NCBI GenBank assembly: GCA_017463245.1
Contig: JAFTPN010000008.1
Span: 1-53,843, forward strand
Direction of reading: 5' to 3'
DNA: 53,843 bases
DNA from: Clostridia bacterium
Lineage (GTDB): Bacteria > Bacillota > Clostridia > Christensenellales > Aristaeellaceae
Shown here: positions 3,807 through 53,619 of the stretch, piece after piece
Layout of the letters: each line of letters begins with the position of its first letter
Position numbering within the stretch: the first letter of the stretch is position 1
The notes under the pieces: model-generated
What the model was told of the DNA's origin: nothing
Databases searched by the model: none
What the model saw: only the letters and a program-made list of their open reading frames with translations
Made by a program: the position numbers and the translations under genes

Positions 3807-5873
3807 ATGAGAATACATCTGCATAAGCGCACGGCTCTGTTTGTTCTGTTCCTTCTTTTGACCCTCGTTTTGTCCGGCTGCAGCTGTAGCCACAAGAACA
3901 CCATCCTCGCCAATGTCTTCGAACCCACCTGCACCACGGCGGGCTATTCCGGCGACCTCCAATGTGCCGATTGCGACGCCGTATTGGAAACCGGCACCGT
4001 GATCGAGATGATCCCCCACCAGCAGGTGAATTACGTCAACCGCATTGCCGCCACCTGCACGGAGGACGGCTTCTCCGGCGATGCCTACTGCGTTGCCTGC
4101 GATACCATGGTCCTCCCTGGCGAGACCATTCCCGCCACCGGGCATGAGGCCATGACGGATCGCCTTTACGTCCAATATCCCTCCTGCACCGGCGAAGGCT
4201 ACACCGGGGATATCCTCTGCACCCGCTGCAACACCGTTCTGGAGCAGGGCGAGGCCATCCCCGCGCTGGGGCATACCCCCGGTGAGCCCCAGAAGGCTCG
4301 GGCAGCCACCTGCACCAAGGAGGGACGCACGGGCGAAATTCGCTGCCTGACCTGCAACTCTCTTTTGCAGGAGAACGAGACCATCCCCGTCGCCGCCCAC
4401 ACCCCCGGCGAACCCGTGGGTGCAAAGGCTGCCACCTGCAAGGCTGAAGGCCGCACGGGCGAGGTGCGCTGCACCACCTGCGATGCCATTGTGCAGGAAA
4501 ACCTGCGCACGAAGGCGCTGGGACATGAGTGCGTGAACACCAACTGCGAGGAAGAAAAGACCTGCACCCGCTGCGGCGAAATCGTGCCCGGCTTCTCCCA
4601 TGCATACAGCGTTGCCACGCAGACCGAGCCCGCCACCTGTGCCGAATGCGGCCACACCTGGGGGCAGCCCCTGACCGTGCCCTTCTACACCAATGGTGAC
4701 GTGGTGGCCGCGGCGCAGCACATTTGCGCAGCCGAGGTGCTGGACAAGTATTTCTCCGAAAAGGAATACCTCCTGCGCACCGACCCTGAGGCCGTGGACT
4801 ACTATATGTCCACCGAGCGCGTTGCCACGCTCTATGACGATGGCAAGGACGTTCTGCTGACCTCCAAGACCGGATTCTACTTCGGCACGGTGGCTGACGA
4901 TGCCACCACCCGGCTCTATGCCCTCCTGCAAACAGACCTGGGCATTGAGAATTCCGAATACGGCTACTTCTCCGTGTCTGTATACAAATCTGCCAATGGC
5001 TACTGGATCGTCGGGAGCGGCTCGCTGATCTACATCGACACCGTGAACGAAAAGCTCTACGAAATGAAGACCAACAAGGCGGGCTACTATCCCTCCATGG
5101 ACGACCGCTACGCCATGTACAACCAGGGCGACTCCCTGTTCATCCTGGATCGGGAAACCTGCCAGGCGCAGCTCATCCCCTTCAGCGGCGTGGATTCGGC
5201 GCCCTACTTTGACCAGAACGGCGTTGCCATTCTGATCGTCAACAGCGCCTACACCGATGAGCAGAAGGACTATGCCGAAGACTTCCGCATGCACAATACC
5301 CACTACTACTACACCTGGAACAACGCCTGCCTGCAGAAGATCGCCTACGCCGATTACCCCTATGTGGTGTATGCCGACAGCGAAGCCATTATGGTGGAAA
5401 AGGAATTCTCCTTTGAGAAGATCGTCAATGGCGAGGCTGTGTGGTCCATCAAGAAGAAGGATCTCAACCAGGATTCCTCCCGCAAGTTCGCCTTCCAGAC
5501 GGGCGTGCTGTGGCAGTATGGCAACAATTCCTCCTACTACTTCACCTATCTGGTTCCCCAGGAGCAGCCTCTGCTGACCTACTCCCTGGGCGCGCCGGAA
5601 ACCGAGAAGGTCGACCTTTCTTACTTTGTGCCCTGGAGCAGCCGCTTCAGCGATTGCCACAACTACGATTACACCGATCACAGCATCGACCACATGTGCG
5701 TCTTTGACCACATGAACCAGAAGATCCTGCTGCTGAACAAGTATCACCGCAGCAACCGCACCTACAACCAGACCCACGTGCTGTGGGATCGCAACCTCCC
5801 CGAAGAGGGCGGGCGCTACGGCGTTTACGCCATCGAGGACGGCAGCTTCTATCAGCGGAGTTTGACGAAATAA
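3807..5873 (+). CDS. Lipoprotein with five Cys3-His repeats and a propeller-like C-terminal half
   Basis: 688 residues, starting at ATG 3807 behind AAAGGAG. A type II signal peptide ends in the lipobox LVLSGC (Cys25), so the protein should be anchored to the outer face of the membrane. Residues about 35-245 hold five tandem repeats of roughly 38-42 residues. Each has the pattern TC-x(2-3)-G[YFR][ST]G[DE]-x2-C-x2-C, then an acidic turn and IP..GH, giving three Cys and one His per unit. A further CxxC-rich stretch (NCEEEKTCTRCGE, ATCAECGHTW) follows. The remaining 400 residues are Tyr-rich, without Cys clusters, and look like a beta-propeller by their regular short strands. Similar repeats occur in surface proteins of gut Clostridia, but I know of no function. 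Metal binding by the repeats is inference. Confidence 0.8.
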   Translation: MRIHLHKRTALFVLFLLLTLVLSGCSCSHKNTILANVFEPTCTTAGYSGDLQCADCDAVLETGTVIEMIPHQQVNYVNRIAATCTEDGFSGDAYCVACDTMVLPGETIPATGHEAMTDRLYVQYPSCTGEGYTGDILCTRCNTVLEQGEAIPALGHTPGEPQKARAATCTKEGRTGEIRCLTCNSLLQENETIPVAAHTPGEPVGAKAATCKAEGRTGEVRCTTCDAIVQENLRTKALGHECVNTNCEEEKTCTRCGEIVPGFSHAYSVATQTEPATCAECGHTWGQPLTVPFYTNGDVVAAAQHICAAEVLDKYFSEKEYLLRTDPEAVDYYMSTERVATLYDDGKDVLLTSKTGFYFGTVADDATTRLYALLQTDLGIENSEYGYFSVSVYKSANGYWIVGSGSLIYIDTVNEKLYEMKTNKAGYYPSMDDRYAMYNQGDSLFILDRETCQAQLIPFSGVDSAPYFDQNGVAILIVNSAYTDEQKDYAEDFRMHNTHYYYTWNNACLQKIAYADYPYVVYADSEAIMVEKEFSFEKIVNGEAVWSIKKKDLNQDSSRKFAFQTGVLWQYGNNSSYYFTYLVPQEQPLLTYSLGAPETEKVDLSYFVPWSSRFSDCHNYDYTDHSIDHMCVFDHMNQKILLLNKYHRSNRTYNQTHVLWDRNLPEEGGRYGVYAIEDGSFYQRSLTK

Positions 5874-5880
5874 GTAACAG

Positions 5881-5923
5881 AAAAACGGCGAAGAGTGCAT
5901 TGCATTCTTCGCCGCCTTTATTT
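5881..5923. terminator. Bidirectional terminator between convergent genes
   Basis: The inverted repeat CGGCGAAGA/TCTTCGCCG (5886-5914, one wobble pair inside) has A-rich sequence on its left and CCTTTATTT on its right. It separates the convergent lipoprotein and XRE genes. Confidence 0.75.
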
Positions 5924-6130
5924 GCGTGGATAGGGCTTTTTCTCGTCGGTGATGCCCAGCAGATAGTCCACCGATGTATCGTAATAGTATGCCAATTTGA
6001 TAAGTGCCTCGATGGGAATGTTGCGTTGGCCGGTTTCGTATTTGGAATAGGAGCTTTGCTGCACATGGAGATAGTTCGCCATGTCCACTTGCTTGATGTT
6101 GGTATCTTCCCGCAAATCGCGTATTCGCAT
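5918..6130 (-). CDS. Small XRE-family (HTH_3) DNA-binding protein
   Basis: 70 residues, essentially one Cro/C1 helix-turn-helix: RIRDLREDTNIKQVDMANYL, then the recognition-helix region QQSSYSKYETGQRNIP and the closing helix ALIKLAYYYDTSVDYLLG. GGAGGGG precedes the ATG. It ends in TDEKKPYPRK, the same tail as the XRE protein at 41396 (TDVKEPYPRK), so the two are paralogues. A TATAAT -10 box lies at 6149-6154 with no good -35. Targets unknown; autoregulation is likely for this class. Confidence 0.85.
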   Translation of the reverse strand: MRIRDLREDTNIKQVDMANYLHVQQSSYSKYETGQRNIPIEALIKLAYYYDTSVDYLLGITDEKKPYPRK

Positions 6131-6261
6131 GCCATCCCCTCCACGGAGATTATATCAAATAGAGAGTAAAACACTATGATATATTACTGTTTGTGATATG
6201 CTTGTGCTGCAGGGCAGCGCAAAGTGACAAGCCGCTGCTTTGCCAAGCAACATTTCTATCG

Positions 6262-6352
6262 TGTAGGGGCGAACTGTGTTCGCCCGCCACGTTGCATTTC
6301 CTGCCTACTGTGCATATGTGCGACTTGCGGGCGATCACAGATCGCCCCTACA
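6262..6352. repeat. Family-1 element, full copy (91 bp)
   Basis: Terminal-inverted-repeat element. The left arm carries a GGGCGAAC/GTTCGCCC hairpin and the right arm a GGGCGATC/GATCGCCC hairpin; the outer ends are TGTAGGGG and CCCCTACA. No coding capacity. Confidence 0.85.
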
Positions 6353-6385
6353 GGTGCATCCATATGTAAGGCGTTGAAAAACGTC

Positions 6386-6550
6386 GCAGAACCACTCCCT
6401 CAGTCAGCGCAAGCGCTGACAGCTCCCTCGAGAGGAAGCCTTTTGGTCGATTCAGCGGCTATTCGGTTTCTTCAAAGCATTTGGAATACAAACTAAGCCT
6501 CCCTCTCGAGGGAGGTGGCAGCCGCTTGCGGCTGACGGAGGGAGTTCACG
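6386..6550. repeat. Family-2 inverted pair
   Basis: Two inverted copies of the family-2 module. Each has a CTCCCTC start, a CAGC..GCAAGC..GCTG hairpin and a CCCTCGAGAGG core. They flank about 50 bp of AT-richer DNA. The left end is GCAGAACCACTCCCTC; the right end has diverged. Together with the family-1 copy it fills the gap between the XRE gene and rpsR. Confidence 0.75.
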
Positions 6551-6572
6551 CCGCACCCCCGCCCACCCACAC

Positions 6573-6603
6573 AAAAACCCCCTGAACCTTTCGGCTCAGG
6601 GGG
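6573..6603 (-). terminator. Terminator of the rpsF-ssb-rpsR operon
   Basis: On the minus strand the stem CCCCCTGA/TCAGGGGG (6578-6603) is followed by TTTTTGTG. It lies just after the rpsR stop. Confidence 0.88.
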
Positions 6604-6619
6604 TACTTCATTAGCGGAA

Positions 6620-6877
6620 TTAGTCCACCGTGAAGGGCAGCAGCGCGATGGCACGTGCGCGCTTGATGGCCTCGCTCAGCTGACGCTGATGCTTGGCGCA
6701 GTTGCCGCTCATACGACGGGGCAGGATCTTGCCGCGCTCGTTGATGTAACGACGCAGACGGTTGATGTCCTTGTAGTCGATGTATTCGACCTTATCCACA
6801 CAGAAGCTGCACACCTTCCGGCGGGGGCGACGGCCTCCACGCGGACGGGGCCTTCTCTCAGTACGTTCTTCAGACAT
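6620..6877 (-). CDS. rpsR: Small ribosomal subunit protein bS18
   Basis: 85 residues; the S18 core [23 protein letters not shown] is unmistakable. It is the zinc-binding (C+) form, with CSFC near residue 24 and C-x2-H (CAKH) after the core. The N-terminus is Arg-rich. GAGGAGG lies 8 nt before the ATG. It is the last gene of rpsF-ssb-rpsR, the usual bacterial order. A perfect DnaA box (6792-6800) lies inside the coding sequence. Confidence 0.97.
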
Positions 6878-6910
6878 TGGGATGGCCTCCTCTCATTAAA
6901 CTTAAGCGTA

Positions 6911-7336
6911 TTAGAAGGGAAGTTCGTCGGTTTCCACGGCGGTAAAGCCGCTGTTCTGCGCGGTGACGCTGGGCGCGGGGGCGGCATTGTAGCTGCCGGC
7001 GGCCTGGTCGTCGTTGCGGCTGGACAGGAATTCGACGTCTTCAGCAGTGACTTCCAGAGAAACGCGGGTGGTACCGTCGTTGGCCTGATAGGTTCGGGCG
7101 CTGACGGGACCAATGACGCAAACCTTGCGACCCTTGGCCAGGAACTTGGCGCAGTTTTCACCCAGCTGGCGCCATGCGCTCACGCGGAAGAAATCCGCCT
7201 CGGGCTGGCCATTCTGGGCATTCTGGCCGCGGCGGCGGTTCACGGCGACGGTAAAGTCGCAAACGGTGTAGCCGTTGCCCACGGTGCGCAGTTCGGGATC
7301 ACGGGTCAGGTTGCCGATGATCGTCAGTTTGTTCAT
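6911..7336 (-). CDS. ssb: Single-stranded DNA-binding protein
   Basis: 141-residue SSB: N-terminal OB fold (MNKLTIIGNLTRDPELR, then DFFRVSAWRQLGENCAKFLAKG), a flexible Gly/Ala/Pro linker and the acidic C-terminal tip DELPF that recruits partner proteins. It coats single-stranded DNA during replication and repair. It lies between rpsF and rpsR, the standard Bacillota arrangement, and shares their promoter. Confidence 0.97.
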   Translation of the reverse strand: MNKLTIIGNLTRDPELRTVGNGYTVCDFTVAVNRRRGQNAQNGQPEADFFRVSAWRQLGENCAKFLAKGRKVCVIGPVSARTYQANDGTTRVSLEVTAEDVEFLSSRNDDQAAGSYNAAPAPSVTAQNSGFTAVETDELPF

Positions 7337-7359
7337 CGTCTTTTTCCTCTTGGAGTCGA

Positions 7360-7758
7360 TTACTCAGCAGCTTCCACAGCGGGAGCGGCCTCAACGGCAG
7401 CCTCCTCGGCAGGAGCGGCCACGGGAGCGGCAGGACGGGCAGCGCGGGGCTTCACGTTGCTGCGCTTTTCGACCAGCTTCACCACCAGGTAGCGGAGAAC
7501 GCTGTCGTAGATCTCCAGGTTACGCTCAAGTTCCTTGGGCAGTTCGGCAGGAGCCTTGAAGGTCACCAGCACGTACCAACCTTCGGTCTTGTAGTTGATG
7601 GCATACGCCAGGCGGCGCTTGCCCCAAGTCTCGTCGACCTTTTCCACCTCACCACCGTTAGCAGCGATCAGGGCGGACACCTTCTCGATCAGTTCCTTAC
7701 GAGCGGTTTCCTCCAGCGCAGTATCGATGATGTAGGTCAGTTCATACCTATTCATCAT
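7360..7758 (-). CDS. rpsF: Small ribosomal subunit protein bS6
   Basis: 132 residues. The N-terminal MNRYELTYIIDTALEE and the WGKRRLAYAINYKTEGWYVLVTFKA segment are typical of S6. An unusually long Ala/Pro/Glu-rich tail (about 35 residues) follows the fold. The start is ATG 7758 or ATG 7755 behind AGGAGG; the GTG at 7764 overlaps the ribosome site. First gene of the operon, transcribed from the promoter at 7821-7849. Confidence 0.95.
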   Translation of the reverse strand: MMNRYELTYIIDTALEETARKELIEKVSALIAANGGEVEKVDETWGKRRLAYAINYKTEGWYVLVTFKAPAELPKELERNLEIYDSVLRYLVVKLVEKRSNVKPRAARPAAPVAAPAEEAAVEAAPAVEAAE

Positions 7759-7820
7759 TTTCACCTCCTCTTGGACTTATGGCGATACACTTGCGTATCG
7801 CAAGGATGTGCCGATTAAAG

Positions 7821-7849
7821 ATTATAACAGACAAAGCAAGGAATTTCAA
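7821..7849 (-). promoter_or_regulatory. Promoter of rpsF-ssb-rpsR
   Basis: On the minus strand: TTGAAA (7844-7849), 17 bp spacer, TATAAT (7821-7826). Confidence 0.85.
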
Positions 7850-7969
7850 GGGTTTTCGCGACTTTTTTTGAAAATTTTCTGCACTTCTGTATATTGTGGG
7901 AATCTTGCCGGGGGAATACCCTCCGTAGGGGTGGATGGGGAGGAAGCAGCAGAACCCGCTGCATCCTCC

Positions 7970-8100
7970 GCGTCGCGGCGCGACCGTATTCGCGCCGTGA
8001 CCCCTGCTGAAACAGCGTACCTCCGCCATCCCAGCCTGGGAGTCCAGAGGGCCGAAGGCCCTTTGGTGGAGGAGTCCAGAGGAGGCAACGCCTCCTTTGG
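7970..8100 (+). repeat. Composite hairpin element, copy A (families 3 and 4)
   Basis: It starts with an invariant GCGTCGC flank, then a covarying stem GGCGCGA/TCGCGCC (7977-7996) around CCGTAT, then GTGACCCC. A linker and two small-loop hairpins beginning CAGAGG follow (8044-8100). Homologous copies lie at 23107, 26873 (inverted) and 45662. It occupies most of the 400 bp between rpsF and the methyltransferase at 8162. Confidence 0.75.
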
Positions 8101-8132
8101 TTGCCAAATTACCCAAAACATGATACCATACC

Positions 8133-8138
8133 TATAAT
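8133..8138 (+). promoter_or_regulatory. Probable -10 box of the uracil methyltransferase
   Basis: A perfect TATAAT with only a weak TTACCC 18 bp upstream as -35. A start of transcription near 8145 would exclude the ATG at 8141 and favours the ATG at 8162. Confidence 0.5.
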
Positions 8139-8161
8139 AAATGTCAGAAGGCAGGATGGCT

Positions 8162-9505
8162 ATGAAGAAGAACGATGTGCTGACCCTCACCGCCCACGCC
8201 CTGGGCGCCGACATGGAGGGCGTGTGCCGCCACGAGGGCATGGCGGTGTTTGTGCCCGGAATGCTGCCGGGTGAAACCGCCCCCGTGCGCATCGTGAAGG
8301 AGCAGAAGCGCTTCGCCTTCGGCCGCCTGGAGGGCAAGCCGGATGTCCCCGCCCCCACCCGCCGGGAGCCGGACTGCCCGGCCTATCCCCGCTGCGGCGG
8401 CTGCTCCTGCCGCCACATGAGCTACGAAGCTACCCTGGATGCCAAGCGCCAGCAGGTGAAGGACTGCTTTCAGCGCATCGGGCATATCGACATCGACGTG
8501 CCGCCGGTGCTGGGCATGGCCGAGCCCTCGGCCTACCGCAACAAGACCGCCCTGCCCGTGGGCGGCACCGCGGATGCGCCCCGTGTGGGCTTCTTTGCGC
8601 CCCGCAGCCACGCGCTGATCCCCATCGACCGCTGCCCCAATGCCATGCCCCCTGCTGACCAGCTGTGCGAGGCCGTGCTGGACTGGATGCGGGCAAACCG
8701 CGTTGCCCCCTATGTGGAGGAAAGCCACACCGGGCTGATGCGCCACATTGTGATCCGGGTGAACCGCCAGGGCGAGGCCATGGTGACCCTGGTGGTCAAC
8801 GGCGCCTCCCTGCCCAAGGAAAAGGAGCTGGCCGCAGCCCTGATGCAGCGGGGCGCGGTGAGCGTGATCTTCAACGAGAACCGGGACAAAACCAACGTGA
8901 TATTGGGAAGGAAGTTCCGCACCATTGCCGGGCAGGACACCCTGAAGGACGTGCTCTGTGGCCTGACCTTCGACCTGTCCCCCGCGGCGTTTTTCCAGGT
9001 GAACCCCAGCCAGACCGAGGTGCTGTACCAGACCGCGCTGGACTATGCGGACATCACCCCCGAGGACACCCTGTGCGACGTCTACTGCGGCGCGGGCACC
9101 ATCACCCTGATGATGGCGCGCCATTGCAAAACCGCCCTGGGCATTGAGATCGTCCCCCAGGCCATCGACAACGCCCGGCAGAACGCCCAGCGCAACGGCA
9201 TCACCAACACGGACTTCCGCGTGGGCGCCGCCGAGGAAGTGCTGCCCCGCCTGGTGGATGAAGGCCTGCGCCCGGACGTGATCGTGGTGGATCCGCCCCG
9301 CAAGGGTCTGGACGAAAAGGTGATCCACGCCATGGCCAAGGCCGCCCCGCGACGCATCGTTTATGTGAGCTGCAACGTGGCCACCCAGGCGCGGGACGCC
9401 GCCCTGCTGCAGGAGGCGGGCTATCGGCTGGAAAAGGTGCAGCCGGTGGATATGTTTGCGTGGACCAGCGGGGTGGAGAACGTTGGTCTGTTTGTCAAAG
9501 AATGA
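8162..9505 (+). CDS. 23S rRNA (uracil-C5)-methyltransferase, RlmD/RlmCD family
   Basis: 447 residues. An N-terminal TRAM-like RNA-binding domain (residues about 5-60) is followed by an iron-sulfur cluster motif CPAYPRCGGC and a later Cys in DRCPNA. The C-terminal Rossmann domain has motif I DVYCGAGTITLMMA, motif IV VDPPRKG and the catalytic Cys in VYVSCN. These enzymes methylate C5 of specific uridines in 23S rRNA using SAM. The ATG at 8162 is chosen from the -10 box position and the AAGGCAGG ribosome site; ATGs at 8141 and 8156 are alternatives. Which uridine is modified cannot be told from sequence. Confidence 0.92.
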   Translation: MKKNDVLTLTAHALGADMEGVCRHEGMAVFVPGMLPGETAPVRIVKEQKRFAFGRLEGKPDVPAPTRREPDCPAYPRCGGCSCRHMSYEATLDAKRQQVKDCFQRIGHIDIDVPPVLGMAEPSAYRNKTALPVGGTADAPRVGFFAPRSHALIPIDRCPNAMPPADQLCEAVLDWMRANRVAPYVEESHTGLMRHIVIRVNRQGEAMVTLVVNGASLPKEKELAAALMQRGAVSVIFNENRDKTNVILGRKFRTIAGQDTLKDVLCGLTFDLSPAAFFQVNPSQTEVLYQTALDYADITPEDTLCDVYCGAGTITLMMARHCKTALGIEIVPQAIDNARQNAQRNGITNTDFRVGAAEEVLPRLVDEGLRPDVIVVDPPRKGLDEKVIHAMAKAAPRRIVYVSCNVATQARDAALLQEAGYRLEKVQPVDMFAWTSGVENVGLFVKE

Positions 9506-9522
9506 ATTGGGAGGTAATCGAC

Positions 9523-10224
9523 ATGAAAAGGTTCATTGCTCTTGTCAGCGCGCTGCTCATGGTGTTTGCAGCTCTGCCTGCCGTGGCGGAGGACGCCATG
9601 CCCCGGGAGGTGCATACCTTCTTCAGCGGCATGGGTGATATGGTGGATATGAGCCAGGTGGCTTATGCGGCGGATCAGGAGACCTATGTGAACGGCATGC
9701 CCGGCAGGCTGCTGTCCTTCACCATCAGCCGCCAGCAGTATGACAGCTTCTACTACTATGTTTTCGATGATCAGACCGCCATCACCGTCTGCTGCGTGGA
9801 TGGCAAGCCGCTGGCCTACATTCTCGACTGCGCCGCGATCAACTTTATCGGCGGCCATGAGACCACGCACAATATCCTCCAGGAGCTCCCAGGTGCCTAT
9901 TCCAGCGCCTGTCCCCAGCAGAAGAGCGACCTGGATGCCTACGCATTTTTTACCAGTCCCATGCTGAACAGTATTTATGATCCCATGGCGCAGGTATTCC
10001 TTTCCGATGTGCAGGATCATGGCCAGACGCTGGTTTCCTCCCACATCTTTGCCCTGGGCGGGCAGATGGCCGTGCAGCTCTTCCCCAAGGCTGCCTATGA
10101 CGGCGTGATCGTTGAGGGCGAGGCGCTGACAGCGGAGATGAATCATGATCTTTCGGCGGCGCTGGCGATGGACACGGAGTATCAGCTGGTGATGAAGAAC
10201 TTAGAACGGAATTCAAGCAAATAA
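9523..10224 (+). CDS. Secreted protein of unknown function
   Basis: 233 residues with a type I signal peptide (MKRFIALVSALLMVFAALPAVAED, cleavage probably after AVA). GGGAGG lies 8 nt before the ATG, 17 nt after the upstream stop, so it may be co-transcribed. The mature part is mixed alpha/beta, Tyr-rich near residue 70 (FYYYVF) with a CC pair (VCCVDG). I recognise no domain. Expected outside the membrane. Confidence 0.75.
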   Translation: MKRFIALVSALLMVFAALPAVAEDAMPREVHTFFSGMGDMVDMSQVAYAADQETYVNGMPGRLLSFTISRQQYDSFYYYVFDDQTAITVCCVDGKPLAYILDCAAINFIGGHETTHNILQELPGAYSSACPQQKSDLDAYAFFTSPMLNSIYDPMAQVFLSDVQDHGQTLVSSHIFALGGQMAVQLFPKAAYDGVIVEGEALTAEMNHDLSAALAMDTEYQLVMKNLERNSSK

Positions 10225-10234
10225 AGGATGGAAC

Positions 10235-10714
10235 ATGGACATACTTTACCGCAAGGCAACCAGCGACGATTGCCTCGCCCTTGCCGAATTGAAGGGCAGG
10301 GTGTGGAACACCACCTACAAGGGCATTTATTCGGATGAAACGCTGCAAAACTATGATGTTGCCAAAAACCAAAGCATTTTCGAGAGCATCGTTGCCAATC
10401 CGGAAATTGAGCTCTACCTGGCCGAATGCAACGGCACGGCCGTGGGTCTGATGACCTGTGGCAAGCCTTTTCGTCCATTCATGCACTATGAGCAGGAAAT
10501 TGGCTTGCTGTACATTTTGAAGAGCTACCAGCGCCGGGGCATTGGCAGGGGGTTCTTTGAACTGGCTCGCCAGCAGGTGAAGAACAGCGGCCACCGGGAG
10601 TTTCTGGTGTCGGTAAACAAGCTGAACAAGCCCGCCATTGACTTTTACCTGGCTATGGGCGGAAAAGTTGTTCTGACGGATGAAAAGCAGATGAAGATAG
10701 GGTATTGTGTGTAA
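10235..10714 (+). CDS. GNAT-family N-acetyltransferase
   Basis: 159 residues. The acetyl-CoA site motif A is QRRGIGRGFFELAR, preceded by the strand GLLYILKSY and followed by the motif B-like NKPAIDFYLAMGGK. It transfers an acetyl group from acetyl-CoA to an unknown amine. AAGGA precedes the ATG, 10 nt after the previous stop, suggesting an operon with the secreted protein. A terminator follows. Confidence 0.88.
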   Translation: MDILYRKATSDDCLALAELKGRVWNTTYKGIYSDETLQNYDVAKNQSIFESIVANPEIELYLAECNGTAVGLMTCGKPFRPFMHYEQEIGLLYILKSYQRRGIGRGFFELARQQVKNSGHREFLVSVNKLNKPAIDFYLAMGGKVVLTDEKQMKIGYCV

Positions 10715-45816: not shown

Positions 45817-46359
45817 TTAGTAATTCACAGCGCGGATCATGAAGTAGCTTTGGGGGTGGGCGCAGACGGGGCAGACTTCGGGGGCTTTTTTGCCGATGTG
45901 GAGGTGGCCGCAGTTGGAGCACTCCCAGATCATATCGCCGTCGCGGGAGAAGACCAGGCCGCCTTCCACGTTGGCCAGGAGCTTGCGGTAGCGCTCTTCG
46001 TGGGTCTTTTCAATGGCGGCCACCATTTCAAACTTGGCGGCGATGTCGTCGAAGCCTTCCTCGCGGGCTTCGCGAGCCATGCGGGCGTACATATCCGTCC
46101 ACTCGCCGTTCTCGCCCTCGGCGGCGGCCAGCAGATTTTCGGCCGTGCCCTTGATGGAGCCGCCCTCCAGGAGCTTGAACCACATCTTGGCGTGCTCCTT
46201 TTCGTTGTTGGCAGTATCTTCAAACAGCTGGGCGATCTGCACATAGCCGTCCTTCTTGGCCTTGGAGGCAAAGTAGGTATACTTGTTGCGCGCCATGGAT
46301 TCGCCGGCAAAGGCCTCCAGCAGGTTCTGTTCGGTGCGGGTACCCTTCAGGTTCTTCAT
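45817..46359 (-). CDS. rbr: Rubrerythrin
   Basis: 180 residues from ATG 46359 behind AAGGAGG. N-terminal diiron four-helix bundle ([43 protein letters not shown]) and C-terminal rubredoxin with two CxxC knuckles ([18 protein letters not shown]). Cytoplasmic peroxide reductase of anaerobes, fed by rubredoxin or NADH systems. A 7-1-7 palindrome (46397-46411) upstream suggests control by a Fur/PerR-family repressor. Confidence 0.96.
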
Positions 46360-46396
46360 ATTCGGTAAACCTCCTTGTTCTGTTTGCGGTCTTGCG

Positions 46397-46560: not shown

Positions 46561-47619
46561 ATGGCAAAGAACCAAATGAAAGTGCGACATCCATCCCATG
46601 TGCGCCTGCTGGCGCTGTTGCTGCTGCTGGCAGCGCTGCTTTCCGGCTGCAGCGGGCAGGAGCCTGCCCCGGAGCCGACTTCTGCCCCGGTGAAGCGCAG
46701 CGGCGTGGGATTTTACTTTGATACGGTGGTGACCGCCACCCTCTATGGCGGCGAGGAAGGGCTGCTGGACGAGATATGGGCGGCATGCGCCCGGTATGAA
46801 AACCTGCTGAGCAAGACCATTGCGGGCAGCGATGTGGATCGCATCAACAAGGCAAACGGGGAGACGGTGACCGTTGACCCGGAGACCTGGGCGATACTGC
46901 AAAGGGCAAAGGACATCAGCCAAATGACCGGCGGCGCCTTTGCGGTGACCATCGCCCCCATGACGGCCATGTGGGACTTTACCGACGGCACCAACCGGAT
47001 GCCCACCGACGAGCAGCGCCTCTCTGCCCTGCCCTTGGTGAACGATGAGGCCATCGCCCTGGGGGACAACAACACCGTGACCCTGCCTGCGGGCATGGAG
47101 ATCGACTTGGGCGGCATTGCCAAGGGGTATATAGCCGATCAGGTGGCGAAAATGGTGGAAGGGCGCGTCAGCGGCGCGGTGCTCAGCCTGGGCGGCAATG
47201 TGTATGTGCTGGGCAGCAAGCCCGACGGCAGCACCTATAATGTAGGCATTCAGGATCCCGACGGGGGCAGCGGCTCGGTGCTGGCGGTGGTGAACACCAC
47301 GGATCGCTCGGTGGTCACCAGCGGCATTTACGAGCGGCAGTTCACACTGGACGGTGTGACCTACCACCACATTCTGGATCCGGTGGACGGCCTGCCCTCC
47401 TGCAGCGACCTGAGCAGCGCCACCATCATCGGCAAAAGCTCCATGGACGCCGACGCCCTGGCCACGGCCTGCATCGTGCTGGGCAGGGAAAAGGCGCTGG
47501 AAATGATGGCGGAGCAGGGCATCGAGGGTGTGCTGATCACCCGCGACAGACAGGTGTACAAGCATCAAACAAGCGATACATTCCAGCTGAATATGCTGGT
47601 GGACATTCCGGTACAATAA
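46561..47619 (+). CDS. apbE: FAD:protein FMN transferase (ApbE), lipoprotein
   Basis: 352 residues. The lipobox LLSGC (Cys30) anchors it outside the membrane. ApbE core: FYFDTVVTATLYGG, CARYENLLSKT, TGGAFAVTIAPMTAMWDF, EIDLGGIAKGYIADQV, GGNVYVLGSKPDG, then the HHILDPVDG and SSMDADALATACIVLG metal/FAD region. It attaches FMN from FAD to Thr in (S/T)GAT motifs of partner proteins. The partner is evidently the next gene, 18 nt downstream. The start is uncertain: no clear ribosome site before ATG 46561, and ATG 46576 is an alternative. Confidence 0.95.
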   Translation: MAKNQMKVRHPSHVRLLALLLLLAALLSGCSGQEPAPEPTSAPVKRSGVGFYFDTVVTATLYGGEEGLLDEIWAACARYENLLSKTIAGSDVDRINKANGETVTVDPETWAILQRAKDISQMTGGAFAVTIAPMTAMWDFTDGTNRMPTDEQRLSALPLVNDEAIALGDNNTVTLPAGMEIDLGGIAKGYIADQVAKMVEGRVSGAVLSLGGNVYVLGSKPDGSTYNVGIQDPDGGSGSVLAVVNTTDRSVVTSGIYERQFTLDGVTYHHILDPVDGLPSCSDLSSATIIGKSSMDADALATACIVLGREKALEMMAEQGIEGVLITRDRQVYKHQTSDTFQLNMLVDIPVQ

Positions 47620-47637
47620 ACGTAGGAGGCAACACCC

Positions 47638-50292
47638 ATGGAAAACAATGCGCCCCAGAAAAAGCAGTTCCCGGCGTTTCTGACCCTGACCATCATTGCG
47701 GTGGTGGCCGCTGTGGTGCTGGCTTTGACCAACATGATCACCGCCGGCCCCATTGCCGAACACGCTATGGCTGCCCTGAAGGAAGCCTTCAATGCGGTGA
47801 TGCCCGCTGAAAGCTATGAGGCCATGACTGTGCCTGCCGAGTACGAGGTCGCCAGCCTGTATGCGGCCAAGAACGGCGATGAGGTCATCGGCTACTGCGT
47901 GACTGCCTCCAGCAATGGCTACGGCGGCCCCGTGGCTGTGACCCTGGGCGTGGACAAAAGCGGCGTGGTCACCGGCTGCTCCGTGGGCGACACCAATTTT
48001 GCCGAGACCGCTGGCTTTGGCGCCCGTGCCAAGGATGCGTCCTTCCAGGAGCAGTTCCCCGGTATCAGCGCGGTGGACGGCGGCGCTTTTGAGGCGCTGA
48101 GCGGCGCCACCATCACCAGCGAGGCCGTGCGCGCTTCCGTCAACAAGGGCCTGAAGTGCGTGGCCGAGGTGGCGCTGGGTGCATCCCAGAAGGCTCAGGT
48201 GGAGTTTGGCGCTCCCGCTGGCAAGGCTGACGAGGCTGAAGCTGTGGAGCCCGTGGGCGAAGTGCTGACCGCCGCTGCCCCTGGCTTTGCCGGGCAGGAC
48301 GTGATTGTGAACGCCACCATGAATGCGGATGGCACCATTGCCACCCTGTCTTTCGACATGAGCCTGCAGGCGCCCCCTGTGTGCGACCTGTGCAACACCG
48401 ATGAGTTCAAGAGCCAGTTCATCGGCAAGGCTGGCCCCTTTGTGAAGGGCGAGGGCATCGATATTGTGTCCGGCGCCACCTTCACCTCCGAGGGCATCAT
48501 TGCTGCGGTGAACAAGCTCTATGAGACCCAGGAGACCTTTGCCGAGGCTCCTGCCACCGTGATCGCCGAGGGCGACTCCGCTGCCCTGGCCGTGAAGGCC
48601 GACGGCGCTGCCGTGGTGACCCCTGTAGAGGGCTACACGGGCGACGTGGCCGTGAACCTCACCGTGGAAAACGGCCAGGTCACCGCAGGCGAGTTTGCTG
48701 CCCCTGCGGAAGAAGTGGCTGCTGAGCCTGCCCCCGCTGACAACATCATCGGCACGGCTCCTGGCTTCCAGAGTGACGTGAACGTGTCCATCACCTTGGC
48801 GGAGGATGGCACCATCGCCGCCCTGAGCATCGGCTCTGCCGGCGAGACCCCCGGCTTTGGCATCCGCTGCGCCGAGGATGAGACCTTCATCAACCAGTTC
48901 ATTGGCAAGAAGGGTCCCTTCGCCATTGGCGAGAATGTGGATGCCCTGACTGGCGCTACCATGACTTCCACCGCCGTGGTGGAGGCCATCAACGTGGCCA
49001 TGAACGCGGATGAGGCCGTTGCTGACACCACCGAAGAAGTGGTGGAGGAAGTTCCTGCTGAAACCGCCGCCCCCGCTGGCGAGACCTTCACCGGCACCGC
49101 CGCTGGCTTCCAGAGCGACGTGACCGTGACCCTGACTGTGGCTGACGGCGTGATCACCGCCATCACCGTGGATTCCTCCGGCGAGACCGTTGGCTTCGGC
49201 ACCCGCTGCGCCGAGGACGAGACGTTCCTGAACCAGTTCATCGGCAAGAAGGTCGAAGTGTTCACCCTGGGCGAGAATGTGGACGCGCTGACTGGCGCGA
49301 CCATGACCAGCCAGGCTGTGGTGAATGCCATCAATGCTTCTTCTACCGTGGCAGCTACTGCCGAGGCGGTGGAAGCCGCTCCCGCTGGCGAGACCCTCAC
49401 CGGCACCGCCGCTGGCTTCCAGAGCGACGTGACCGTGACCCTGACCGTGGCTGACGGCGTGATCACCGCCATCACCGTGGATTCCTCCGGCGAGACCGTT
49501 GGCTTCGGCACCCGCTGCGCCGAGGACGAGGCGTTCCTGAACCAGTTCATTGGCAAGAAGGCCACCCCCGACCTGGGCGAGGGCATTGATGCGCTGAGCG
49601 GCGCTACCATGACCTCCGAGGCGGTGGTGAAGGCTGCCAATGCGGCCATCGGTGTGGAAGAGGCCGTGGAGACCACCGAAGAAGTGGTGGAAGAAGTTCC
49701 CGCCGCTCCCGCTGCTGAAGAGCTGACCGCCGCTGCTGCTGGCTTTGCTGGCAAGGATGTGGGCGTGGCCGTGACCCTGAACGAGGATGGCACCATCGCC
49801 ACCCTGACCCTTGACCTGACTCAGCAGGTTCCTCTGGTGTGCGACCTGTGCAACAGCGAGGACTTCCTGAACCAGTTCATCGGCAAGAAGGGCCCCTTTG
49901 TGAAGGGCGAGGGCGTTGACATCGTGACCGGCGCGACCTTCACCTCTGACGGCGTGATCGCTGCGCTGAACACCCTGTTCCCCGAAGAGGAAAAGGTGGA
50001 AGAAGCTGCTGCTCCCGCTGGTGAAGCGCTGACCGCCGCTGCGCCTGGCTTCCTGGACAGCGAGGTGGGCGTGACCGCCACCCTGAACGCCGACGGCACC
50101 ATCGCCACCCTGACCTTCGACCTGAGCAAGCAGGTGCCTCCGGCGGGCGACCTGTGCGACTCCGAGGATTTCAAGGCGCAGTTCATCGGCAAGAAGGGCC
50201 CCTTTGTGCTGGGCGAGGGCGTCGATGCTGTGACCGGCGCCACCTTCACCTCCGAGGGCGTTGTCGAGGCGCTGAACAAGCTGTTTCAGTAA
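47638..50292 (+). CDS. Membrane-anchored protein with seven FMN-binding domains
   Basis: 884 residues; AGGAGG precedes the ATG. One transmembrane helix (about 11-32) with the rest outside. Seven PF04205-type FMN-binding domains, each ending in the flavinylation motif [ST]GATxTS, with acceptor Thr at 158, 281, 441, 555, 657, 767 and 869. Domain 1 resembles RnfG/NqrC (GYGGPVAVTLG). Domains 2, 6 and 7 form one subtype (VCDLCN or GDLC before the motif); domains 3-5 another (GFG[IT]RCAED). A degenerate segment without the motif (about 300-365) separates 2 and 3. Ala/Glu/Pro-rich linkers join the domains. It should carry up to seven covalent FMNs and pass electrons along the chain outside the cell membrane. 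Partners upstream in the chain are not in the window. Confidence 0.93.
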   Translation: MENNAPQKKQFPAFLTLTIIAVVAAVVLALTNMITAGPIAEHAMAALKEAFNAVMPAESYEAMTVPAEYEVASLYAAKNGDEVIGYCVTASSNGYGGPVAVTLGVDKSGVVTGCSVGDTNFAETAGFGARAKDASFQEQFPGISAVDGGAFEALSGATITSEAVRASVNKGLKCVAEVALGASQKAQVEFGAPAGKADEAEAVEPVGEVLTAAAPGFAGQDVIVNATMNADGTIATLSFDMSLQAPPVCDLCNTDEFKSQFIGKAGPFVKGEGIDIVSGATFTSEGIIAAVNKLYETQETFAEAPATVIAEGDSAALAVKADGAAVVTPVEGYTGDVAVNLTVENGQVTAGEFAAPAEEVAAEPAPADNIIGTAPGFQSDVNVSITLAEDGTIAALSIGSAGETPGFGIRCAEDETFINQFIGKKGPFAIGENVDALTGATMTSTAVVEAINVAMNADEAVADTTEEVVEEVPAETAAPAGETFTGTAAGFQSDVTVTLTVADGVITAITVDSSGETVGFGTRCAEDETFLNQFIGKKVEVFTLGENVDALTGATMTSQAVVNAINASSTVAATAEAVEAAPAGETLTGTAAGFQSDVTVTLTVADGVITAITVDSSGETVGFGTRCAEDEAFLNQFIGKKATPDLGEGIDALSGATMTSEAVVKAANAAIGVEEAVETTEEVVEEVPAAPAAEELTAAAAGFAGKDVGVAVTLNEDGTIATLTLDLTQQVPLVCDLCNSEDFLNQFIGKKGPFVKGEGVDIVTGATFTSDGVIAALNTLFPEEEKVEEAAAPAGEALTAAAPGFLDSEVGVTATLNADGTIATLTFDLSKQVPPAGDLCDSEDFKAQFIGKKGPFVLGEGVDAVTGATFTSEGVVEALNKLFQ
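49072..49251 (+). repeat. Recent tandem duplication, copy 1 (with 49381-49560)
   Basis: 180 bp inside flavin domains 4 and 5 that match the copy 309 bp (103 codons) downstream with four differences. Confidence 0.9.
49381..49560 (+). repeat. Recent tandem duplication, copy 2
   Basis: Second copy, in frame, encoding the N-terminal part of flavin domain 5. Confidence 0.9.
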
Positions 50293-50523: not shown

Positions 50524-53500
50524 ATGAAGCAATTTGGAAAACGACTGCTGACGCTGACGCTGGCATTGCTGATGGCCATGTCTGTGCTGCCGGAGGAGTG
50601 GCATCGCTCTGCCCAGGCAGCGGGCGCCTATGGCAAGGTGACGGCTGATGGAGTCAAGCTCCGCAAAAAGGCCAGTACCTCCGCAGCATACTGGTTCAAG
50701 CTGGACACGGGCTACGTCTGCCAGGTGCTGGACGTGACCGCCAGCGGCGATATCACCTGGTATAATGTGGAGGCGGTGCATCCCGATCCGGGCAGCACCC
50801 GCACCTATATTGGCTACATCCATGGTGATTTCTTCACCCCCCTGACGGAGCAGGAGGCCGCCGAGTATGAGGCCAATGGCAAGCTGGAAAGCAGCGCGCC
50901 CGACACCTCTACCGATACGTCTACTGACACGTCCACCGGGGATACGTCTGCCGATGACGCCGCCAAGGAGGAGGATGCCTCCCAGGAGGATACCTCTGCC
51001 GATACCTCCACGGGCAGCAACACCACCGCCTATGCCGGTGCCACCGGACAGATCACCAACGATGGCGTGAACTTCCGCGAGTCCGAGGGCGGCGACATGA
51101 TCCGCAAGCTGGATCGCGGCACGGTGGTGGAGGTGCTGACCATCCCCCCGGTGATCGACACCAACCATTGGTATAAGGTGCGCTATGCGGGCGATGTGGG
51201 CTACATCATGTCCACCTTCCTGCAGTTGATCTCCACCGGCGACCCCAACGGTACGCCTACCGATCCCGATGCTGACCTTTCCCTGCACGGCTATGTGAAG
51301 CTGGTGCTGTCCTCTGCCAACCTGCGCCTGACCCCCGCTGGCACCGTGGGCGCCCAGTGGGAGAACACCGGCGAGGTGCTGGCCGTGGTGGCTGCCCCCG
51401 TGACGGAGAAGAACTTTGTGTGGTACCCCGTGGAATATGAGGGCAACCGTTATTATGTCCGCGAGGATACCGTGCAGCTGCAGGCTACCCCCGGCAGCTC
51501 CGGCTCCAGCAGCTCTGGTTCTTCCGGCTCTGCCAGCGGCGGCACCACCGCTACCATCGTGGGCTATGTGCGCACCACCAAGAGCGGTGTGAACCTGCGC
51601 CTGAAGCCCGCCGGTACCGTGGTGACCCAGATCAGCAAGGGCGAAGTGCTGCCCATGATCGCCAATGTGGTGAAGGACAGCGGCTACTACTGGTATAACG
51701 TGCAGACCGCGGACAATGTGCGCGGCTACCTGCGCGGCGACTGCGTGGTGGTCTGCAATGCGGATGGCAGCAACATCGAGTCCGGTTCCACCCCCGTGGT
51801 GACCGACCCGCCTGCCTCCACCAGCTATGGCTATGTGAAGACCATCAAGGATAAGGTCAACCTGCGCAACAAGCCCGCCGGTTCCTCCCAGGAGCAGATC
51901 GCCCTGGGCGTGGTGGTTCCCATGACCGGCAACAAGGTGAAGAGCGGCAGCTACTACTGGTATCCTGTGAAGGCCGCCTCCGGCAAGACGGGCTACCTGC
52001 GCAGCGACTGCGTGATCGAGTGCGACAACGACGGCACCGATTCCACGGTGACCAGCGCCCCCGAGACCAGCCAGCCCACCGAGACCACCAAGCCTGAGGA
52101 AACCACGCCGCCCGCCACCTCCGCCTATGGCTATGTGATGGTGACCAAGGACAGCGTGAACCTGCGCAAGACCGCCGCCGGTACCAAGATCGGCGAGGTG
52201 AACAGCAACTCCGTGTGGCCCATGACCGGCGAAAAGGTGAAGGCCAAGGGCTACTACTGGTATCCCGTGAATGTGGAAGGCAAGCTGGGCTTTATCCGCG
52301 AGGACTGCTGCTTCCAGCTCTCCAAGACCCAGCAGGAAAGCTACCTGGCTGGCAACGGTGTGCCGGATGAGGACACCGTGGATGCACCCTCCAACTATGT
52401 GATCACCACCCTGGACAAGGTGAACCTGCGCATGGCCGCCACCAAGGATTCCACCGCCAAGTTCAACGTGGCGCTGGGCACGGTGATGGCCTACAAGTCC
52501 ACCGCCACGGTGAGCGGCGCCAAGTGGTACCGCGTGATCTACAGCAACACCGAGGTGTGGGTGCTGGGCTCCTGCGTGGATGAAATGACCGCCTCCGAAT
52601 ATGAAGAGTGGGCGGCGAAGAACCCCAATAACACGCCCCAGACGGAAGTCATTCTGGGCTATGTGCGCACCACCGCCGATGGCGTGAACCTGCGCAAGAC
52701 TGCCGCCGGTACTGTGCTGGCCCGCATGGACAAGGGCAATGTGTACTCCTACTCCAAGACGGAAGCCAAGGGCGGCTATACCTGGTACTACGTCAAGACC
52801 CCCGTGGGCAATGGCTACCTGCGCAGCGACTGCGTGATGGAGTGCAACTCCGACGGCAGCAACTTTACGCCCACGGTGACCACCACGCCCTCTACCTCCG
52901 GCCAGGAGGCCAGCTACACCACCCTGAAGCTGGGTTCCAGCGGCACCGCCGTGAAGAACCTGGTGGCTGAACTGAAGAACCAGGGCTACTACTCCGGTGA
53001 CGTGACCAGCAGCTATACCTCCGCTGTGGAGAGCGCTGTGAAGACCTTCCAGGCCGCCAAGGGGCTCACGGTGGACGGCATTGCCGGTTCCAAGACCCAG
53101 CATGCGCTGTTCGGCACGGTGCCGATTGGCTCCGGCGACAGCTCCAACCTGAGCTTCACCCACTACCCGGCAGAGAAGATCGACTGGTTCACCGGCGGCA
53201 TTCAGCAGCTGTGGCCCAAGGGCGCGAACTACAAGATCTACGACGTGAAGACCGGCATCGTGTGGTGGGCACACCGCTGGAGCGGCTTCAACCATGCTGA
53301 CATCGAGACCCTGACCGCTGCCGATACGGCACGCCTGTGCAAGATCTACGGCGTGAGCAAGGCCAGCGAGATCAACGACAAGCAGCACTGGCACCGCCGC
53401 CCCTGCCTGGTGACCATTGGCACCCGCACCTTTGCCTGCTCGCTGTATGGCGTGCCGCATAACCCCGATGGCGATACCATCAGCAACAACGAGATGACTG

Positions 53501-53619
53501 GTCAGATCTGCCTGCACTTTACCAACAGTATGACCAGCGACACGAAGGTCGTGGATACCAACCACCAGAAGGCCATTGACTACGCATATCAGAATGCGCC
53601 CGGTGGCCAGAAAAAGTAA
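50524..53619 (+). CDS. Secreted wall protein: eight SH3b domains, PG-binding domain, unknown C-terminal domain
   Basis: 1031 residues. Signal peptide (KRLLTLTLALLMAMSV...AQAA). Eight SH3b domains, each opening with a GYV/GKV...VNLR-type motif, spread over about residues 36-780 with Thr/Ser/Asp-rich linkers. A PG_binding_1 domain (LKLGSSGTAVKNLVAELKNQ at about 800 to DGIAGSKTQHALFG) follows. The last 150 residues are a conserved-looking domain with HYPAEKIDWF, WWAHRWSGFNHADI, HWHRRPCLVTI and GQICLHFTNS. I have seen this type in Clostridia but cannot name it; its conserved His and Cys suggest an enzyme. It probably binds and remodels peptidoglycan. Confidence 0.88.
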   Translation: MKQFGKRLLTLTLALLMAMSVLPEEWHRSAQAAGAYGKVTADGVKLRKKASTSAAYWFKLDTGYVCQVLDVTASGDITWYNVEAVHPDPGSTRTYIGYIHGDFFTPLTEQEAAEYEANGKLESSAPDTSTDTSTDTSTGDTSADDAAKEEDASQEDTSADTSTGSNTTAYAGATGQITNDGVNFRESEGGDMIRKLDRGTVVEVLTIPPVIDTNHWYKVRYAGDVGYIMSTFLQLISTGDPNGTPTDPDADLSLHGYVKLVLSSANLRLTPAGTVGAQWENTGEVLAVVAAPVTEKNFVWYPVEYEGNRYYVREDTVQLQATPGSSGSSSSGSSGSASGGTTATIVGYVRTTKSGVNLRLKPAGTVVTQISKGEVLPMIANVVKDSGYYWYNVQTADNVRGYLRGDCVVVCNADGSNIESGSTPVVTDPPASTSYGYVKTIKDKVNLRNKPAGSSQEQIALGVVVPMTGNKVKSGSYYWYPVKAASGKTGYLRSDCVIECDNDGTDSTVTSAPETSQPTETTKPEETTPPATSAYGYVMVTKDSVNLRKTAAGTKIGEVNSNSVWPMTGEKVKAKGYYWYPVNVEGKLGFIREDCCFQLSKTQQESYLAGNGVPDEDTVDAPSNYVITTLDKVNLRMAATKDSTAKFNVALGTVMAYKSTATVSGAKWYRVIYSNTEVWVLGSCVDEMTASEYEEWAAKNPNNTPQTEVILGYVRTTADGVNLRKTAAGTVLARMDKGNVYSYSKTEAKGGYTWYYVKTPVGNGYLRSDCVMECNSDGSNFTPTVTTTPSTSGQEASYTTLKLGSSGTAVKNLVAELKNQGYYSGDVTSSYTSAVESAVKTFQAAKGLTVDGIAGSKTQHALFGTVPIGSGDSSNLSFTHYPAEKIDWFTGGIQQLWPKGANYKIYDVKTGIVWWAHRWSGFNHADIETLTAADTARLCKIYGVSKASEINDKQHWHRRPCLVTIGTRTFACSLYGVPHNPDGDTISNNEMTGQICLHFTNSMTSDTKVVDTNHQKAIDYAYQNAPGGQKK

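Follow-up and report, generated by a model that had tools for sequence, protein, structure and literature searches.

A seven-flavin protein encoded beside apbE is probably the unlinked RnfG subunit of the only Rnf complex of a Clostridia bacterium

The 53,843-nucleotide stretch of DNA analysed here (the window; contig JAFTPN010000008.1 of assembly GCA_017463245.1) comes from a gut Clostridia bacterium of the family Aristaeellaceae and carries near its end a pair of plus-strand genes, both with ATG starts, that are predicted to encode a flavinylated protein and the enzyme that loads it. The first gene, apbE (46561-47619), encodes a predicted lipoprotein FAD:protein FMN transferase of 352 aa (Pfam ApbE, 267.3 bits), and the ApbE domain together with the lipobox LSGC suggests that the product is exported. 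It is the sole ApbE match in a search of the genome, a 2.70-Mb metagenome-assembled genome (MAG) of 92 contigs that is 90.8% complete and in which the window is contig C12. Following a spacer of 18 nt, the second gene (47638-50292) encodes a predicted seven-FMN RnfG-type subunit of 884 aa with seven FMN_bind stretches (E 1.4e-79). All seven [ST]GATxTS motifs are intact, with threonines at positions 158, 281, 441, 555, 657, 767 and 869. Chance was rejected as their origin, as 5000 composition shuffles of the protein gave a mean of 0.001 motifs and never more than one. The strongest hydrophobic stretch on the Kyte-Doolittle scale lies at about residues 11-35, and no 19-residue window starting past residue 40 exceeds 1.6. 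With seven FMN_bind domains behind one N-terminal helix, and a topology that is probably outward, the protein has the features of a multi-flavinylated protein (more than one FMN_bind domain, extracytosolic). An earlier note on this DNA had described the same arrangement, and its coordinates, lipoprotein assignment and threonine positions were confirmed. Its remark that no NADH dehydrogenase, Eet or Rnf genes lie nearby also fits our reading, in which no electron source linked to the pair was found among the open reading frames (ORFs) from 44 kb to the end of the window or among the seven proteins scanned there.

The N-terminal part of the 884-aa protein resembles the RnfG subunit of Rnf complexes. 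The transmembrane helix (about residues 11-35) and flavin domain 1 (Thr158) form a module (47638-48162, plus strand; TIGR01947 and PDB matches) that by alignment is colinear with solved RnfG chains (7zc6_G, 9eri_G, 8rb9_G and 8ahx_G). Residues 11-173, comprising helix, linker and flavin domain, align with residues 7-179 of 7zc6_G (phmmer, E 4.4e-19), and the alignment begins inside the membrane helix and ends past the flavin site. When the first 175 residues were compared with all PDB chain sequences (E<=0.001), four out of four distinct matches were RnfG: 7zc6 from C. tetanomorphum, 9eri (E 4.5e-15), 8rb9 and 8ahx. NqrC models, by comparison, score only about 20 bits on the module. The acceptor threonine and the loop tyrosine of RnfG are both kept, Thr158 and Tyr95 of the 884-aa protein aligning with positions 185 and 113 of 9eri_G. 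In A. woodii, the RnfG changes Y113A and T185A each abolished growth and ferredoxin:NAD+ activity (PMC11889175). RnfG identity is the surest step of our explanation, and we regard it as highly likely. The protein differs from known RnfG in having six more flavin domains and in being encoded outside the rnf operon, behind apbE. The usual place of rnfG, between rnfD and rnfE, does not define the protein, and the window gene does not occupy it.

The genome carries an rnfCDEAB operon on contig C11, flanked on either side by roughly 5 kb of other sequence: rnfC (5457-6902, 553.5 bits), rnfD (6907-7851, 310.5 bits), rnfE (7844-8485, 246 bits), rnfA (8482-9060, 269.7 bits) and rnfB (9077-10282, 155.4 bits), all over their NCBIfam cut-offs. 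There is no gene in the usual rnfG place; rnfD and rnfE overlap by 8 nt, which leaves no room for one. Only one RnfD/NqrB-type protein is present in the genome. The FMN_bind profile gave ten matches in four proteins, and seven of the ten are in the 884-aa protein. The remaining three proteins, one lipoprotein-like and two that combine FMN_bind with FAD_binding_2, are all encoded away from the rnf contig, and no second RnfG-type protein was found among the matches listed in this 90.8% complete genome. Taken together, the 884-aa protein is probably the RnfG subunit of the bacterium's only Rnf complex, unlinked from the operon and with six flavin domains added.

The earlier note had instead seen a self-contained flavin wire. 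In such an arrangement the RnfG-like start would serve only as an anchor, electrons would come from Ndh2 and quinone or from a CcdA/thioredoxin route, and the Rnf complex would be G-less or broken. The gene is indeed unlinked to rnf, and a CcdA/DsbD_TM-type protein with an adjoining thioredoxin-like protein is encoded elsewhere in the genome, unlinked to the pair; DsbD is among the donors listed in PMC8238504. A broken operon was rejected, since the five rnf genes are open and their products are 64-97% identical to those of the seven genus members compared. A pump without G is hard to reconcile with the loss of Rnf activity in the A. woodii flavin-site mutants. The genome search found no NapH-like protein, no Ferric_reduct/MsrQ-like protein and no second NqrB/RnfD-like protein. 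It also found no NDH2_C match, and a quinone/Ndh2 route gains no support; the test is weak for Ndh2, since the controls were positive in only 4 of 14 genomes and missed both E. coli and B. subtilis. Of the genes that the note had suggested looking for, rnfCDEAB lies on another contig and an EetA/EetB-like pair on a third. Given these findings and the relatives described below, a stand-alone wire seems unlikely. The note's pointer to an Rnf encoded elsewhere was a good lead, except that a subunit of that Rnf is a more convincing reading of the protein than a client. Its flavinylation pair and its membrane-anchored, outward-facing multi-flavin protein are still what the sequence predicts; the word self-contained does not survive the finding that domain 1 is an RnfG module and that the only rnf operon lacks rnfG.

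To see where rnfG sits in relatives, we searched 60 genomes (18 of the genus, the host included, another 18 of the family and another 24 of the order; numbered with the prefix G) for rnfG, RnfD/NqrB and ApbE. RnfD was found in 49 of the 60, the genus members G001 and G013 being among those without a match, and both rnfD and rnfE could be read in 49 operons from 48 genomes; G021, where rnfD runs off the contig end, and the second G018 operon, where no rnfE was found, were left out. The spacing between rnfD and rnfE is bimodal, at 528-2089 nt in 18 operons and -32 to 12 nt in 31. An FMN_bind ORF with 1, 2 or 4 domains by our own profile lies in 16 of the 18 wide gaps. The ORFs in the other two, of 334 and 204 aa (G048, L220:5872-6876; G050, L221:3388-4002), have an RnfG-like start by eye and no FMN_bind profile match, and are perhaps very divergent RnfG.

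All 31 narrow-gap operons belong to genomes with an RnfG-type module elsewhere, a pattern that again speaks against a stand-alone wire. The module is detached for 20 operons (16 of the genus, G019, G025, G030 and G031), stands directly or shortly in front of rnfC for three (G018, G023, G028), and lies on another contig whose ends leave linkage open for three more (G026, G027, G032). The remaining five operons have G fused in frame to RnfD (G019 second operon, G020, G033, G035, G044), and such RnfD-RnfG fusion ORFs of the family and order can be seen at L103:3315-5012, L115:4212-5894, L229:2827-4404, L230:1386-2948 and L102:1734-3125. In all 20 detached cases rnfC is preceded by the same recN-like gene (named by eye; L017:3705-5408), which shows that G does not occupy that position; this gene is absent in the three open cases. 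Within the genus the rnfD-rnfE gap is exactly -8 nt in 16 of 16 operons read, each of these 16 genomes has apbE and a multi-FMN RnfG elsewhere, and apbE adjoins the G gene in 18 of 18 genomes. This repetition across the genus likewise speaks against a self-contained wire. By our own profile, domain numbers range from 6 to 12 in those genus G proteins that no contig end truncates. The one exception is G013, where a plain one-domain RnfG of 201 aa (L232:4057-4662) lies between apbE and an SH3-type gene whose product is 54% identical to that of the window over 854 aa. Downstream in G013 no further strict motif occurs in three frames, and the stretch is free of N. This single-domain form is either a natural tail-less version or an assembly loss, and in both cases the apbE locus is predicted to encode a plain RnfG. 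Domain 1 itself is interrupted by an extra FMN domain in G009, G016 and G017 (at the start of the G gene in L128, L134 and L135).

In the relatives G021 and G028, genes for NusG_II, FAD synthetase, ApbE, a multi-FMN G and RnfC-D lie on one contig, which in G021 also carries EetB, and this ties FAD export and synthesis, ApbE, multi-FMN G and Rnf functions together.

The order of events was examined with two trees. A tree of RnfC+D+E+A included 43 of the 49 operons (left out were G037, G048, G050, G052, G053 and G058). On this tree the detached state needs two changes, one in a clade of 18 (the genus, G019 and G025) and one in G030+G031, and the detached clades are nested among G022, G024 and G029, relatives with G in the slot. 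The RnfD-G fusions form one clade, and the three open genomes group among those with G before rnfC. A second tree was made from 169 columns of 36 G modules, without G009, G016 and G017 (the insert in domain 1), without G041, G042 and G046 (long branches), and also without G037, G052, G053, G058, the second G of G018 and the five RnfD fusions. Here the genus, G019 and G025 again form one detached clade (100/99). As this tree separates the genus from the slot G of its Rnf-core neighbours, the gene may be a replacement rather than the displaced original: the original rnfG may have been relocated, or a G of the front type may have taken its place.

Behind domain 1 the protein continues with six further flavin domains on the plus strand, identified by PF04205: domain 2 (Thr281, 48292-48522, 33 bits), domain 3 (Thr441, 48763-49002, 53.8 bits), domain 4 (Thr555, 49105-49338, 51.1 bits), domain 5 (Thr657, 49414-49650, 57.8 bits), domain 6 (Thr767, 49750-49974, 32.5 bits) and domain 7 (Thr869, 50059-50283, 35.9 bits). 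A profile of the seven domains found RnfG, NqrC and CbFMN4-domain chains in the PDB (11 distinct sequences), which places the repeats by sequence in the FMN-binding fold family. The linkers between the tail domains are rich in Ala, Pro and Glu, and the protein may reach into the wall, as the earlier note supposed. In the alignment a CxxC loop (VCDLC) replaces the isoalloxazine loop in domains 2 and 6, where other domains have an ETPGFG-like loop, and the loop of domain 7 is changed, with one Cys. CxxC is present in 6 of the 17 genus G proteins counted. The changed flavin loops may tune potentials. Haem on the tail finds no support, as there is no CxxCH in the G proteins counted. Domains 4 and 5 share 87.9% DNA identity over 272 nt (window 49060-49665), reflecting either a recent duplication or an assembly effect.

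Such a tail might also be inert or act as a capacitor, holding several flavins without passing net current from the pump. Consistent with this idea are the single-domain form that G013 has at this locus, the variation from 6 to 12 domains among uncut tail-bearing genus proteins and the degenerate motifs in some relatives' domains. Against it, all seven motifs are intact in the 884-aa protein, another 9 of the 27 proteins counted (those with at least two domains, our own included) show the strict motif in every domain, and long tails occur in separate Rnf lineages. We consider an inert tail improbable, if less so than the stand-alone wire. Covalent FMN loading of most sites in the 884-aa protein is likely.

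Several observations weigh against reading the protein as a lengthened RnfG that feeds electrons outward. On its own, the N-terminal module (residues 15-173) scores 93.9 bits with TIGR01947 (rnfG), under the cut-off of 102, and falls under the cut-offs of other RnfG models too (methanogen RnfG, 73.1; DVU2794, 67.3). The whole protein reaches 196.8 bits with TIGR01947 and 221.3 with NF045876, but these scores sum repeats. A small rnfG could be missed in an incomplete MAG (90.8%, 92 contigs), although such an omission would need repeating across the whole genus. The G-module tree does not place the detached clade with the slot G of G022, G024 and G029; long branches and the small number of columns make this tree a weak one. 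The apbE/flavin pair has no acceptor gene linked to it, and electrons could also come from the CcdA/DsbD-type protein. The tail is not universal, as G013 shows, and domains 2, 6 and 7 are without the usual ETPGFG-like loop. Finally, the strict motif is kept by only 119 of the 169 domains in the 27 proteins; among the others AGAT or xAT is frequent and a few picks are six-mers matched by chance, so some domains of relatives may stay unloaded.

In known Rnf complexes, RnfG swings between RnfA/E and RnfD and carries electrons on one covalent FMN (PMC9588780, PMC12174285). If the 884-aa protein is the RnfG of this pump, ApbE would attach FMN to all seven threonines, and domain 1 would shuttle between RnfA/E and RnfD to complete the path from ferredoxin to NAD+. 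Domains 2-7 would act as a flexible arm pointing outward, receiving electrons from domain 1 and passing them to extracytosolic acceptors. The best acceptor candidates would be the two FMN_bind + FAD_binding_2 reductases, of 603 and 619 aa (contigs C39 and C2), which have signal-like starts by eye and whose FMN_bind domains would depend on the same ApbE. Another candidate is the 328-aa lipoprotein-like protein on C54 (L018:6682-7668), which has one FMN_bind domain and is, from its sequence, likely another ApbE substrate; the two ORFs adjoining its gene are without a Pfam match. The FAD for ApbE could be exported by the EetB-type protein on contig C24, whose gene adjoins a NusG_II (EetA-like) gene, an arrangement that probably serves FAD export. 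Electron branching to outside acceptors is plausible, though it could as easily prove not to occur.

Divergent from apbE is a rubrerythrin gene (45817-46368, minus strand; NF045767, 258.6 bits, cut-off 200), kept beside apbE in 14 of the 16 genus loci tested. This neighbour raises the idea of an oxygen/peroxide shield, in which reduced tail flavins would burn O2 at the surface and rubrerythrin would clear peroxide inside, and a reduced three-FMN protein does consume O2 (PMC10339131). Neighbouring genes can be unrelated, however, and the two FMN/FAD reductases in the genome offer a conventional acceptor. We think a shield as unlikely as the stand-alone wire, and it does not compete with RnfG identity. 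Downstream of the G gene the window encodes a 1031-aa protein (50524-53619) with SH3_3 repeats and a peptidoglycan-binding domain, and an SH3_3-type gene follows the G gene in 8 of the 16 genus loci that were tested, several of which stop inside the G gene or shortly behind it, and also in G013. A match to HutF_N scored 27.6 bits against a cut-off of 25, with no individual stretch passing, and we discounted it as a presumed repeat artefact. By ApbE, the closest named loci belong to MAGs labelled 'Clostridia bacterium'; water deer rectum (90% identity) and sheep colon (76%) are the sources of the best two.

Multi-flavin proteins occur widely, 2081 of them in 1530 genomes, and the role of their gene clusters is described as generally unclear (PMC8238504). 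RNF clusters with a multi-flavinylated RnfG have been described, some of which in Christensenellales include multi-haem parts, and for such RnfG a second electron path, leading outward, was proposed (Meheust et al. 2021, PMC8238504). The 884-aa protein is similar in having several FMN domains on RnfG. It differs from those clusters in that its gene is unlinked, the operon slot is empty and the G proteins counted have no CxxCH. In that study an RNF assignment required rnfB within five genes of apbE or an FMN-binding gene, and the arrangement in the window would therefore not be assigned to RNF. The tandem FMN_bind domains also recall SaFMN3 and CbFMN4, flavinylated by ApbE there and predicted to be so here (PMC10339131); domain 1 of CbFMN4 (8p2b) matches our seven-domain profile (E 1.1e-5). 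Those proteins have 3-4 domains, and RnfG identity is not described for them in the portions of PMC10339131 consulted. The Listeria flavin extracellular electron transfer system (Ndh2, EetA/B, FmnA/B, PplA) shares with this genome an ApbE-type transferase and an EetA/EetB-like pair, and its EetB is needed for PplA flavinylation and is read as a FAD exporter (PMC9973259). In contrast to Listeria, the host genome has no Ndh2 match (by the weak test above), and the donor is most likely Rnf. The same paper places eetB near Rnf genes in 572 Clostridia genomes. An apbE-'NosR' multi-FMN module of an iron-reducing Clostridium similarly pairs apbE with a gene for a membrane protein that carries several FMN-binding motifs, and outward flow of electrons from quinone was proposed for it; the likeness is by description only (PMC13134045).

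We found no description of an unlinked multi-flavin RnfG in the titles, abstract starts and passages of the literature covered, supplements aside. Our analysis adds the gene's unlinked position, the finding that the slot is empty in all genus operons read, the intermediate series and a test for other orphan multi-flavin genes. The surveys consulted infer electron donors from gene neighbourhood; here the donor is named by an rnfG slot that stands empty in another part of the genome, and this test is applicable to other cases. More tentatively, and at something short of an even prospect, we suggest that the pump of this genus runs with a separately encoded G, mostly of 6-12 flavin domains, as a three-way device in which ferredoxin, NAD+ and the cell surface share one flavin, and that 'orphan' apbE/multi-flavin pairs of other genomes may represent Rnf subunits encoded away from their operon, not separate wires. 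Should the tail carry current, Rnf would give ferredoxin electrons a way out in ruminant-gut fermenters, with a bearing on how they dispose of reducing power. Overall, a relocated and lengthened RnfG could give the pump a route for electrons to the cell surface in addition to the one back into the cell.

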